Of a stretch of DNA of 27,888 nt, positions 10,965 through 14,860 are shown piece by piece (position 1 is the first letter of the stretch; each line of letters begins with the position of its first letter). The notes beneath the pieces were generated by a model. The model had not been told where the DNA came from. It did no database searches and worked only from the letters and a program-made list of their open reading frames with translations. This DNA comes from a virus: positions 1 through 27,888 of the IMG/VR virus record IMGVR_UViG_3300045996_002277; one strand, 5' to 3'. Made by a program: the position numbers and the translations under genes.

Positions 10965-11768
10965 TCAGGAACTCACGGCGTGCCGGGCCGGACCGTTCCG
11001 GGTGGCGGGGCCTCTGAGCTTGACCGTGCGCAACAGCAGGCGAAGGCGGAGCCTATCCAGGTCCACCCCCTCCAGCTTTGCATCGGTCGGCGCGGGTCCG
11101 GGGGGAGTCTCGGCGGGCGGCGCGGGATCATCCACGGCCGGTGCCGATTCGTCCTCCAAGAGTGCACGAAGGTTCTTGCGCGTCTCTGCGGGCAGGGCCT
11201 TGAGTTCGGCCTGCTCTTCCTCACTGAGTCGCCCCTCGCGGAGCGCTTCCGCTAGCGCCTTAACGCTTGTCGTGTCGATCACGGCGTGGGGGTTCATCGG
11301 CCAGATTACGACCGACACTTCCCGTAGCTTGATCTCCTTCAGGTGGCGGATGGCGTCCCATGCGTCGGTTCCTTCCGCGCGCTCCATCTCCCACTTCACG
11401 GCCTCGTAACCGATGGAGAGCCCGTCGACGTAACCGCCTTTCACGCGCCGCAGGACTTCGTCGCCGTCCGGCCCCTCGATCACCTCGAAATCGCACTCAA
11501 GGCCTTCCGTCGTTTCCTGCGCGCTCAGCATCTTGCCGACAACCGCGCGGACGGAGCCGTAGTTGTGGTTGTCGATCAGCGGAAGCACGCGCCCGCTGGA
11601 GCGCCAAGCGTTGAGCGTGCGTTTGAAGGCGCCCAGCTCGATCACGTCGTTGCCGAGGTCGAGATCCCAGGTGGACGCGAGACCGCTGAAGGTCCGGGCC
11701 TCCTCGTCAACGGACTTGACGGCGAAGGGCCGCGTGAGCGGAGCCTTGCGCTCGGCGAGCGTCTTCAT
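10965..11768 (-). CDS. Prohead protease, HK97 family (S78-type)
   Basis: 267 residues. I use the ATG at 11768, which overlaps the portal-MuF stop as ATGA; the same frame is open a little further upstream inside the intein end but that is only a shadow. The HK97 protease layout is clear: RPFAVKSVDEEARTFSGLAS at the start, a WDLDLGNDVIELGAF strand pair, the catalytic His in LPLIDNHNYGSVRAVVGK and the catalytic Ser in GGYVDGLSIGYEAVKWE, then LKEIKLREVSVVIWPMNP. The C-terminal 110 residues are helical and Pro-rich. It matures the capsid by trimming the scaffold domain. Confidence 0.95.
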   Translation of the reverse strand: MKTLAERKAPLTRPFAVKSVDEEARTFSGLASTWDLDLGNDVIELGAFKRTLNAWRSSGRVLPLIDNHNYGSVRAVVGKMLSAQETTEGLECDFEVIEGPDGDEVLRRVKGGYVDGLSIGYEAVKWEMERAEGTDAWDAIRHLKEIKLREVSVVIWPMNPHAVIDTTSVKALAEALREGRLSEEEQAELKALPAETRKNLRALLEDESAPAVDDPAPPAETPPGPAPTDAKLEGVDLDRLRLRLLLRTVKLRGPATRNGPARHAVSS

Positions 11769-14700
11769 TGCGTCTCCAGTTCGTAAACAAGGGTGCACCG
11801 GCAGTTGCTTACGACGACTCCGGCGGCGATATTCCATCCGGAAACCGACTGGAGGTCGTAGACGTGGCCCGTGTAAAAGTCTCGCCCGACGCGGACGATC
11901 TGGTCAGGCGCTATCAGGGTGGGGAAGCGACCACACAGATCATCCGCGAGTTGGGCATCAGCCCCCCGGTCCTCTACCGCGTTCTGCGTGAGCGCGGTGT
12001 CCGCCTGCGCGGAAAAACCCGCGTCCTCGTGCGGCGGAAGGCTATCAGTGTCGCCCCGTTGGTAGCGGCTTATGCGGGTGGCGAATCCCTCAAGGCGCTC
12101 AGCAAGCGAACCGGGGAGACTCGTGCGACGCTCGCCCTCCGCCTCAAAGAAGCGGGGGTGAAGCTCAGAGGCCGCTCCGAAGCGGAGCGTCTGAAGTGGA
12201 GGCAACTCAAGGCGGCGGACAGCCGCATCGTGGATCGTCAGTGCTCCGCTGCTTGGGCAGCCGCGCGAGGGCGCGTCCAAGTCCCAGCCGAGAAGGTCCG
12301 ACGCGCCCGCACTATCGGCCTCCGCCTCCTCCATCGCGGCGAGCACGAGGATCTGATCGCGGGGCACCTCCGGCAACGGGGAGCGCGTGTCGTGCAGCAG
12401 TATCCCGCCGGGCCCTACAACCTCGATCTCGCCTTGGACGCTGGCCGCGTCGCCGTGGAGGTTTTCAACCGCCGTGTCTCGACTAAGGCGCGGGTAACGC
12501 TCCGCGAGCGCACGGAATACCTCCTCAATCGCGGCTGGGCCGTGGTGTTCGTCCGTCCCCGGAGGGCATTCCCCTGCAACGCTGGGGCGGTAGCCGACCA
12601 GATCATCGCCCTCGCGGAGATCTTTCGCGGCGACGAAGCCACGCGGCGTCAGTATCGGGTGGTTCGGGGTGACGGTGAGATAGCGACCGCCGGCAGTCTG
12701 GATTACGACCACTTCGCCCGCATAATCGGCGCGTAAACCGCCCACGTAAGCGCCCTCGACGACGGTGCCGGCGACGAGACAGTTCGGCTCGGATGGCTCC
12801 TGCAGCCCGTTGCTGAAGGCCTCGTCGATGCCGCGGACCTCGCCGTCCAAGGGCGGGCGGTGCGCATCCCGCACGCGGCCGTCACGGGCAGACAGCCAAC
12901 GTTTCGTGACGCGGCCGCCGATTTCCTTGGCGTAAGCGCTCAGGCTCTCGCGCTGCGCACCGTTGGCCACCCGCGTGACCTCCGTTCGCGCGATCAACTC
13001 GGCACGCGAGCGGCTGAACGCCCCGGCCTCCTCGATCCGCTTGCGGAGGGCGGGGATCGCCTCCCCTTCCGCGAGCCCGGCCGCGAGCGCGGTGCGGATG
13101 GCTTCCTTCGTGGTGCCGGTGACGCTCTGAACCAGGAACGCGGCCTCGCGCTCCACGAAGGCGTCCAGACCCGGCTGGAGGACGTCGAACGAGATCGCCA
13201 ACTCAGCCGCGACTCGCTCCACGGATCGCCGGCCGACCGCCTCGATCAGCCCTTGCGTGCCCTTTCGCCATGCCGTGGCGGCATCGCCGTCCAGGCGCTC
13301 AGCTACGCGACGGATCAGCTCGCGGACGCTCCCGGCATCGGCGGGTCGGAACGGTGCATCGTCCTTGACAGGTTCGGCTCGGAGCGTGGCGTCAGCGAGC
13401 GCGAGGCAGGCGCGGCGGTCCTCTTCGAGCAGCGCATGGGCGGCGAGTTCCCAGCCGGGCTCCTGCCCCGTGAGGACCGCGTCGTGGATCGCCCACCGCA
13501 TCTGATCCGGGTCGACGGTTCGGGCCTTCGCACTCGCGGGTTTGCGCTTCTCGCCCGTGGCGGAGTCCACACCTCCGCTCTCCACAACGGCGCCATCCTC
13601 CAGTAGCCGATCCCCGCGCTCGTCCTCCAACGGCTGAAGCCCGAGCATGGCCCTGGCGTCGTTGACCGTCAGCGCGCGGCCCGCCTTCCCGATGATTTCC
13701 GCTTGGTGCCCTAGATCCGCCTGTAGCGCCTTAACGGCGCCGTGGTCGAAGCGGATAAAGCGGAGCGGGTTCTTGTCTACCGGCCGAAGGAGCCCGCGGG
13801 TGAGCGCCTTCTCCATCCGCGCCCAGGTGGGGATGATGGCGTTGTCGTAAACCAGCAGGACCGACGTCTCCAGGTTGTGGCGGTCGCTGCTGTTCGCGAG
13901 CCCGACGTAGGCGCCGATCACCACGGGCGGGAGTTGGAAGCACGCGCAGACAGCCGCCTCGTTCTCTTTCGACAGTTCGCCGCCTTCGAGCCCGGCGAAG
14001 CCGAGCTTGTTCCGCGAGGCCGTCGCGCCGCCGCCGACCACCAGCGCTTTGCCGTGGTTCCGCGCGCCCTCGTAACCGGCTGCTAGGTCCGCTTTGATTT
14101 CCTCGCGTTGCTCCGGCGTGAGGATTTCGGTCGCAGGGAAACTCAGCGTCATGCCGGGGACAACGGAGTTGAGGAGCCCGCCCCGGATCGACTGAAGCAA
14201 GGTCCGATCGATCCCGAGCCGGGAGAGCGCAGCATCCAGAGGAGCAACGGCGTCGTGCGGGTCGTCCGGATCCACGTTCCGGAACAGAATCACATCATCA
14301 GGACCTTTGATCTTCTCGCTCGCCGTGGTCGTCAACTCGAACTCGCCGTAGATCCGCCCGTCTTTCGCGCGGCTCGTGAACTGATCCTTGCTGTACGGGT
14401 AGAGCGCAGCGACCCGCCCCCCGCGGTCGTAGGCCTTCACCCAGAGGCAAGCGCCCGTCGTATCGAGGAACAGGCTGGTGACCTCCAACAGGTCCACCAT
14501 CTCCATGTCCGGGTTCGGGCGTTCCAGCAGCTCCGCGAGCGGGTGGTCTCCCTCCAGCCAGGTCTCCGTACCGTCACGCTCCTCGCGGATCCAGAGCGGC
14601 GCCTCGATCAGCTTCGTGGCCCGGTAGCGCATGCACGCGTAGGCGAGCCACGCCGCGCGGTACCAGCTCCGCGCTCCGCCGACCCCGTAGTCGAGCGTCG

Positions 14701-14860
14701 TCCCGCCGTTCCCGTTCGTCGGCCAGAAGTTGACCGAACCGGAGAAGATGCGCGGGTCGACGATCACCGACTTCTGCGGTCCGCCGTTCGTTGCCGCGCC
14801 GTTGAGTGAAGGCGCCGCCGTGTACTTGGGGAAGAACCTGAGCCGTGGCTGAGCAGCCAA
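11765..14860 (-). CDS. Portal-MuF (minor head) fusion protein containing an intein
   Basis: 1031 codons from a TTG start with a weak ribosome site. Residues 1 to about 430 are an HK97-type portal: RSWYRAAWLAYACMRYRATK, PNPDMEMVDLLEVTSLFLDT, VAPLDAALSRLGIDRTLLQS, and an ACFQLPPVVIGAYVGLANSS segment. After a linker (about 430-560) comes an SPP1 gp7/MuF-like head morphogenesis domain, with RAELIARTEVTRVANGAQRE, KRWLSARDGRVRDAHRPPLD and the closing NCRC motif. Portal and MuF are usually separate genes; here they are one frame. Residues 694-1019 are an intein, leaving a 705-residue spliced product. The 3' end couples to the protease gene. The intein DNA also encodes an endonuclease-like gene on the opposite strand. 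Confidence 0.93.
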   Translation of the reverse strand: MAAQPRLRFFPKYTAAPSLNGAATNGGPQKSVIVDPRIFSGSVNFWPTNGNGGTTLDYGVGGARSWYRAAWLAYACMRYRATKLIEAPLWIREERDGTETWLEGDHPLAELLERPNPDMEMVDLLEVTSLFLDTTGACLWVKAYDRGGRVAALYPYSKDQFTSRAKDGRIYGEFELTTTASEKIKGPDDVILFRNVDPDDPHDAVAPLDAALSRLGIDRTLLQSIRGGLLNSVVPGMTLSFPATEILTPEQREEIKADLAAGYEGARNHGKALVVGGGATASRNKLGFAGLEGGELSKENEAAVCACFQLPPVVIGAYVGLANSSDRHNLETSVLLVYDNAIIPTWARMEKALTRGLLRPVDKNPLRFIRFDHGAVKALQADLGHQAEIIGKAGRALTVNDARAMLGLQPLEDERGDRLLEDGAVVESGGVDSATGEKRKPASAKARTVDPDQMRWAIHDAVLTGQEPGWELAAHALLEEDRRACLALADATLRAEPVKDDAPFRPADAGSVRELIRRVAERLDGDAATAWRKGTQGLIEAVGRRSVERVAAELAISFDVLQPGLDAFVEREAAFLVQSVTGTTKEAIRTALAAGLAEGEAIPALRKRIEEAGAFSRSRAELIARTEVTRVANGAQRESLSAYAKEIGGRVTKRWLSARDGRVRDAHRPPLDGEVRGIDEAFSNGLQEPSEPNCLVAGTVVEGAYVGGLRADYAGEVVVIQTAGGRYLTVTPNHPILTPRGFVAAKDLREGDDLVGYRPSVAGECPPGTDEHHGPAAIEEVFRALAERYPRLSRDTAVENLHGDAASVQGEIEVVGPGGILLHDTRSPLPEVPRDQILVLAAMEEAEADSAGASDLLGWDLDAPSRGCPSSGALTIHDAAVRRLELPPLQTLRFGAASELHPRFFEAEGERRTSLPGSLAERLEGFATRISRYQRGDTDSLPPHEDAGFSAQADTALTQNAVEDRGADAQLADDLCGRFPTLIAPDQIVRVGRDFYTGHVYDLQSVSGWNIAAGVVVSNCRCTLVYELETQ
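11851..11855 (+). promoter_or_regulatory. Ribosome binding site GGAGG of the antisense gene
   Basis: GGAGG lies eight bases before the GTG at 11864 on the plus strand. It falls opposite the codons for the intein motif VYDLQ. It decides the start of the antisense gene over the earlier, unlikely TTG at 11768 in the same frame. Confidence 0.65.
11864..12736 (+). CDS. Putative homing endonuclease encoded antisense to the intein (Vsr-like nuclease with two HTH repeats)
   Basis: 290 residues, GTG start with GGAGG eight bases upstream, TAA stop. The whole gene lies inside the intein DNA on the opposite strand. Residues 12-50 and 65-103 are two related helix-turn-helix repeats sharing LVxxYxGGE, a central Gly, and ExGVxLRG. 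Residues about 153-225 resemble the Vsr/EDxHD or PD-(D/E)xK nuclease fold: RGEHEDLIAGHLRQRGARVV, QQYPAGPYNLDLALDAG (candidate D188), VAVEVFNRR (candidate E199), and ERTEYLLNRGWAVVFVRPRR. The C terminus is QYRVVRGDGEIATAGS. Two aligned HTH repeats plus a nuclease-like domain are not expected from a chance antisense frame. Target and activity are inferred: cleavage of intein-free MuF genes to spread the intein. A chance frame remains possible because the codons are in register with the intein's. Confidence 0.78.
   Translation: MARVKVSPDADDLVRRYQGGEATTQIIRELGISPPVLYRVLRERGVRLRGKTRVLVRRKAISVAPLVAAYAGGESLKALSKRTGETRATLALRLKEAGVKLRGRSEAERLKWRQLKAADSRIVDRQCSAAWAAARGRVQVPAEKVRRARTIGLRLLHRGEHEDLIAGHLRQRGARVVQQYPAGPYNLDLALDAGRVAVEVFNRRVSTKARVTLRERTEYLLNRGWAVVFVRPRRAFPCNAGAVADQIIALAEIFRGDEATRRQYRVVRGDGEIATAGSLDYDHFARIIGA

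Follow-up and report, generated by a model that had tools for sequence, protein, structure and literature searches.

The intein-bearing head gene

The window, that is, the whole stretch of DNA analysed, is a 27,888-base IMG/VR virus fragment of 67% GC, in which a minus-strand head gene (positions 11765-14860, product of 1031 aa) is recognised by Pfam as both a portal (Phage_portal, 1e-42) and a MuF protein (Phage_Mu_F, 2e-15). Note that portal and MuF are fused in this gene and are separate genes in the annotated relatives inspected. Twelve codons upstream of its stop, the gene is interrupted in frame by an intein of 326 codons (11804-12781, minus strand), which starts with Cys1, ends in Ser-Asn before Cys+1 and is followed by the C-extein CRCTLVYELETQ (11768-11803, minus strand, part of the same gene); the extent and frame proposed in the earlier note are exact. 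Indeed, the insert shows the marks of an intein, namely a block A nucleophile, a block B TxxH motif (TPNHPIL), blocks F/G (block F being HVYDLQ) and a C-terminal Asn before the nucleophile. The block B His and Thr are conserved in 91 of 91 relatives, profile searches matched the KlbA, RecA and RadA inteins, and the AF2 model of the sense protein displays a HINT fold at residues 1-65 and 286-326 (pLDDT >90). The Pfam Intein_splicing match to the portal-MuF product (5e-5) remained under the family cut-off. Profile searches of the window intein found no endonuclease family in the intein frame, in line with the earlier suggestion that it has no endonuclease of its own.

It could be argued that the sense insert is a bacterial-intein-like domain that cleaves instead of splicing, since its penultimate residue is Ser and not the usual His, the Ser-Asn ending recurs in half of the relatives, and MuF genes are known hosts of intein-like domains. 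However, Cys1 is present in 124/124 relatives parsed and Cys+1 in 118/124, and the C-extein encodes a CxC motif that intein-less genes possess as well, so we regard a merely cleaving domain as quite improbable and treat the insert as a presumed splicing intein.

The antisense gene and its product

The opposite strand of this intein carries a gene of 290 aa (11864-12736, plus strand, stop codon at 12734-12736), whose GTG start codon (11864-11866) is the complement of intein block F His306 and stands 8 nt downstream of a GGAGG Shine-Dalgarno sequence (11851-11855, plus strand), itself the complement of the block F codons D-L-Q. Its predicted product contains two HTHs supported by Pfam and by the helices of the AF2 model (residues 10-43 at 11891-11992, HTH_7, 5e-7; residues 63-96 at 12050-12151, HTH_58, 1e-9), then a helical linker seen in the AF2 model (residues 104-154, 12173-12325) and a Vsr/EDxHD-like nuclease domain (12341-12631), all on the plus strand. 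The HTH pair of the family profile matches Cbp1 (2lvs) at 7e-9. Members of the family have between zero and two HTHs, and the antisense nuclease of Rhodococcus phage REQ3 (L015, 2495-3037) lacks any. On the sense side, intein residues 131-272 (11966-12391, minus strand), whose complement encodes the end of the first HTH through the first half of the nuclease, are modelled with low confidence (pLDDT mostly <50), so that a floppy linker lies opposite the DNA for most of the HTH region and for the front half of the nuclease.

The assignment of the nuclease domain relies on profile matches, structure comparison and conserved residues. Although the match to MTES_1575 (Pfam PF18741, a REase family; 5e-6) stays below threshold, with 26.9 bits against a gathering cut-off of 38.2, the family profile matched 3hrl (5e-7) and I-Bth0305I (3r3p, 4e-4) in the PDB, and E162 and E199 align with glutamates of both. 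The AF2 model (mean pLDDT 90.9) placed I-Bth0305I and Vsr near the top of the Foldseek results with a probability of 0.96-1.0, but with weak E-values (0.015-0.12). Combined, these results support a Vsr-like alpha/beta fold and a sequence relation to such nucleases. The putative active-site residues are the most conserved ones in the family, and the window copy keeps E162 (12347), N186 (12419), D188 (12425), E199 (12458) and R216 (12509). With respect to the E-D-x-H-D motif, conservation extends to E162 and D188 and is complete at E199, but the H/D part varies among relatives, and the GG..H present in many of them is absent from the window copy; the full EDxHD motif is not established. The two HTHs, the Vsr-like domain and the GGAGG ribosome site that had been read from the letters alone were all recovered by these analyses, the last being selected across 66 relatives (see below).

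Distribution of the layout among relatives

Using the antisense protein as a tblastn query, we retrieved 90 phage records (phages of Gordonia, Mycobacterium, Rhodococcus, Pseudomonas, Salmonella, Klebsiella, Vibrio and others), in nearly all of which the match lies antisense to a MuF/head-morphogenesis gene, and which include homologues at 47-52% GC. Together with an earlier scan and an IMG/VR scan by the nuclease core, which carried no intein information, these records yielded 181 nuclease ORFs (145 distinct), so that the layout is a widespread class and not peculiar to this phage. All 181 oppose an open frame in the same codon register, compared to 0 and 4 in the other two registers, and all distinct homologues except one lineage sit antisense within an intein. 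A scan with the N-terminal 130 residues of the intein detected at least 553 relatives, with the antisense gene in 80/80 of those kept; note that this query overlaps the nuclease and thus favours carriers. In genome_contigs only two loci were found, both with the same layout. The IMG/VR scans gave no close relatives of the window proteins, the nearest relatives of the element reaching ~40% identity at best, and the diversity of two nuclease-core alignments (A2 and A3) was too high for some scans. In the existing annotation, two Salmonella phage records call a piece of the antisense strand a hypothetical protein, and nothing is annotated on that strand in the 17 other phage records inspected.

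The exceptional lineage (L123:2042-2875 and its twin L124) holds a free-standing nuclease gene that is convergent with an intein-less MuF gene and overlaps its 3' end, and the sense frame opposite the nuclease is broken there, which provides a natural control. It is possible that this lineage represents an escape from the intein arrangement or a forerunner of it. An ancestral position was considered for it; in the tree, however, it falls within the family, on a weakly supported branch (0.74), which leaves the origin unresolved.

The element has also entered other sites. Indeed, one MuF gene (L070:2941-5220) is interrupted by inteins at two different sites, with an antisense nuclease for each of them, and in two other records (L116 and L147) the intein with its antisense nuclease occupies a uracil-DNA glycosylase/DNA polymerase A fusion gene and not MuF. 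As side observations, the intein-bearing MuF gene of L049 (1144-5004) also has a C-terminal ADP-ribosyltransferase-like domain (Pfam ADPrib_exo_Tox), and a near full-length antisense match (37.5% identity) lies in a minor head protein gene of Candidatus Promineifilum breve plasmid III (L267), a Chloroflexota plasmid with phage head genes.

Selection on both strands

The two genes overlap in exact codon register, i.e., sense position 3 pairs with antisense position 1 and the second positions pair with each other. In GC-rich DNA, chance frequently leaves antisense ORFs in this register open, and an open frame by itself therefore cannot count as evidence. A spurious ORF that merely mirrors the conservation of the sense protein therefore had to be weighed, the more so as this register is where chance ORFs are longest, the window has 67% GC and tblastn can mirror sense conservation. 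However, the substitution pattern is reversed in the overlap: the fastest codon position inside it is sense position 1, the antisense wobble, in 53/53 close pairs, whereas outside it, in the same pairs, the most substituted is sense position 3, the sense wobble. Note that these 53 pairs are not all independent. Likewise, pooled over 17 pairs, divergence at four-fold sites of the host gene (extein) was 0.326 for the sense and 0.053 for the antisense frame, compared to 0.072 and 0.241, respectively, in the middle of the overlap. When synonymous codons were shuffled with the sense protein fixed, antisense profile scores dropped from 222-342 bits to at most 207 bits in 12/12 tests, the shuffled sequences staying in each test below the score observed for that test, and the same was true of the converse test; the real nuclease scores are thus far above all sense-preserving shuffles. 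Among 93 relatives at <55% identity, against an expectation of 399 sense-frame stops within the nuclease genes, we observed 2, both in L123. These results, with the HTH and REase matches, the nuclease fold and the homologues at 47-52% GC, led us to reject the mirror artefact, to which we grant virtually no credence. The selection tests and the homologues of lower GC leave practically no doubt that the antisense gene is real, conserved and selected.

Stop avoidance, shuffles, four-fold rates, codon choice and the constraint map all point to purifying selection in both frames, as required of an overlapping gene pair. The question raised in the earlier note, whether the antisense frame stays open and under selection in homologous MuF inteins, can thus be answered positively. 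Along the element, the block A side is constrained in the sense frame only, the first two tenths of the overlap in both frames (block B versus the nuclease C-terminus QYRVIRG), the fourth tenth, with the catalytic strand, again in both, the middle in the nuclease only, the vicinity of block F in both, and the part beyond the nuclease start in the sense frame only. Consequently, the suggestion that the overlap forces both proteins to evolve together holds at block B, the catalytic strand and block F, but this constraint is uneven, with a nuclease-dominated middle where the sense protein is a predicted disordered linker.

Two stretches of the window illustrate the dual coding on both strands: the antisense C-terminal QYRVVRGDG lies over the sense block B TPNHPIL (12650-12676), and the antisense V-A-V-E199 strand over sense (N/D)-(L/F)-H-G-D (12449-12463). 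In 92 relatives the codons of the [VI]-A-V-E199 strand are nearly fixed (Ala GCC in 86/92, Val GTG in 79/92, Glu GAA in 81/92, giving F-H-G-D in the sense frame), unlike those of N186 and E162, which are used freely. This codon choice suggests that the sense motif is itself under selection. The motif itself, (D/N)(F/L)HGD at sense residues 107-111 (12449-12463), is conserved opposite the catalytic strand of the nuclease, and its role is unknown.

Start signals within block F

In most relatives block F reads G-H-V-Y-[DN]-L-Q, and its complement, CTGGAGGTTGTACAC-ATG, comprises a Shine-Dalgarno sequence and a start codon; in relatives with a TTG start, the sense residue is Gln. The block F His codon is CAT, which gives ATG, in 53 of 66 canonical cases (22.9 expected), and a Shine-Dalgarno match of at least 4 nt occurs in 60 of 66 (38.3 expected from host-gene codon usage). 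Judged from codon choice and the Shine-Dalgarno sequence, to which the evidence is limited, the putative antisense start codon and ribosome site within block F are selected. The His before block F was dropped as a feature unique to this class, since the canonical KlbA intein has GH there too. No sigma-70-like promoter was recognised for the antisense gene in our scan, and the idea that the endonuclease is expressed apart from the late head operon is not shown.

Evidence for mobility

Among Gordonia Vividuovirus, 152 records match the MuF gene, only 7 of which contain the Fosterous-type gene, intein included, over at least 80%, and Gordonia phage ChadMasterC has an exact empty site at N|C with flanks of 97.3%. 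At the same Gordonia position, Sedona harbours a different, 825-bp intein that carries an antisense nuclease of its own and comes from a separate clade of the tree, so that one site holds two different inteins, of 948 and 825 bp. Jerseyvirus also displays presence/absence polymorphism of the intein, with an empty site at N|C in Salmonella phage MA12. Moreover, between Escherichia phage GZMU_E2010 and Salmonella phage sidste the intein diverged by 3% and the host gene by 27%, and the first 40 codons upstream of the intein differ by 5-7%, a low divergence that is as expected if co-conversion had taken place; a further pair (L046/L047) likewise shows 0.6% for the intein versus 12% for the host gene. 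Low intein divergence results in part from double constraint and not from transfer, but double constraint does not explain the conserved flanks. Altogether, four features of the genome comparison point to homing: presence or absence at precise empty sites, one site occupied by two unrelated elements, inteins that diverged less than the genes that host them, and conserved flanks. Site-specific presence/absence with intact empty alleles, and with it this inference, applies to the Vividuovirus and Jerseyvirus relatives and not to the window copy, which has no near relative.

These observations also bear on whether the antisense gene, even if real, might perform another job, for example as a late-operon regulator or as a nuclease against competing phages, with the intein as hitch-hiker. 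Its two HTHs resemble regulators and Cbp1, and no cutting has been shown. Nevertheless, its near-obligate linkage to inteins at several MuF sites and in the UDG-DNA polymerase gene, the precise empty sites with conserved flanks that homing predicts, and the strong conservation of the putative active-site residues make such a job very unlikely. A homing role could still be a thing of the past, with the nuclease a decayed relic in the window and many relatives, and inteins persisting by splicing alone. In L241/L251 (2528-3124, antisense), an in-frame deletion removes the conserved E162 region while the intein frame is intact, and such sequences show what appears to be nuclease decay. The nuclease can indeed decay without harm to splicing, since nuclease-frame stops are ordinary Leu and Ser codons in the sense frame. 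However, most copies keep all conserved residues with low antisense amino-acid change, and the window copy retains its five, so a general relic remains unlikely, and a homing endonuclease is the reading that we retain.

A proposed mechanism

We thus hold with high confidence that these elements form a class of inteins whose homing endonuclease is encoded wholly antisense, and the antisense protein is very likely a homing endonuclease that moves its own intein, with cleavage, splicing and expression being inferred. In the mechanism we propose, the sense intein would splice itself out of the MuF protein, translation of an antisense transcript would begin at the block F ribosome site, the nuclease would bind across the codons of the intein-free MuF gene (...N|CRC...) and cut there, and repair would copy the whole element into the intein-free gene. 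All this relies on sequence and predicted structure; no cleavage, splicing, transcript or protein was observed, and the GTG start of the window copy, the penultimate Ser of its intein (a residue that half of the relatives share) and the lack of a recognised promoter count against it. The fuller proposition, that this is a widespread and so far unrecognised intein class in which the splicing domain and the homing endonuclease lie on complementary strands in exact register, block F doubling as ribosome site and start and the catalytic strand sharing codons with the intein DFHGD, is one that we favour with reservations.

Such a class would represent a novel means of equipping an intein with its own mobility enzyme, and would account for some phage inteins that seem to lack a nuclease. 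It would also mean that standard annotation, limited to one strand, overlooks a large family of nucleases that might serve as site-specific cutters. In addition, more than 100 diverged natural examples show two full-length conserved proteins overlapping in antisense, and with them the long-standing question of how both strands of one gene can encode folded proteins becomes directly testable.

Comparison with known systems

The earlier note knew of no standard description of this layout. The open literature searched yielded no account of an endonuclease encoded antisense within an intein, but hidden homing nucleases in other frames have precedents (PMC11855218, PMC9548176). Novelty remains provisional, as a survey of actinobacteriophage inteins, Gordonia phages included (Gosselin, Arsenault, Gogarten; bioRxiv 10.1101/2025.01.02.630785, cited in PMC11855218), announces a non-canonical architecture and may overlap with our findings, although it need not deal with this very layout. 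Canonical inteins with in-frame LAGLIDADG or HNH nucleases share with the present elements the HINT splicing domain, the insertion at a conserved residue, the sporadic presence and the homing logic, but their nuclease lies in frame, whereas here it is a separate polypeptide of the opposite strand and the in-frame middle is a nuclease-less linker. The EDxHD homing endonucleases (I-Bth0305I and those of fractured split-intein genes) have in common the Vsr-like fold, the phage origin and multi-domain DNA binding, and I-Bth0305I resembles the antisense family with a profile E-value of 4e-4 and a Foldseek probability of 0.99-1.0; they are, however, free-standing or intron genes, some beside split inteins, and not buried antisense in an unsplit intein. 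The ShiLan element, an out-of-frame HNH homing nuclease hidden on the same strand of a phage methylase gene (PMC11855218), likewise conceals a homing nuclease in a second frame of an insertion that is itself in frame with a phage gene, but it has no splicing domain and no detectable ribosome site, in contrast to the antisense, Vsr-like nuclease within an intein and the conserved ribosome site described here. Finally, antisense homing endonuclease genes of nuclear group I introns, such as I-DsqI, shown to be expressed and active (PMC9548176), also lie on the strand opposite the host gene; yet a group I intron works as RNA and needs no translation, whereas both strands of the present elements must encode a working protein.
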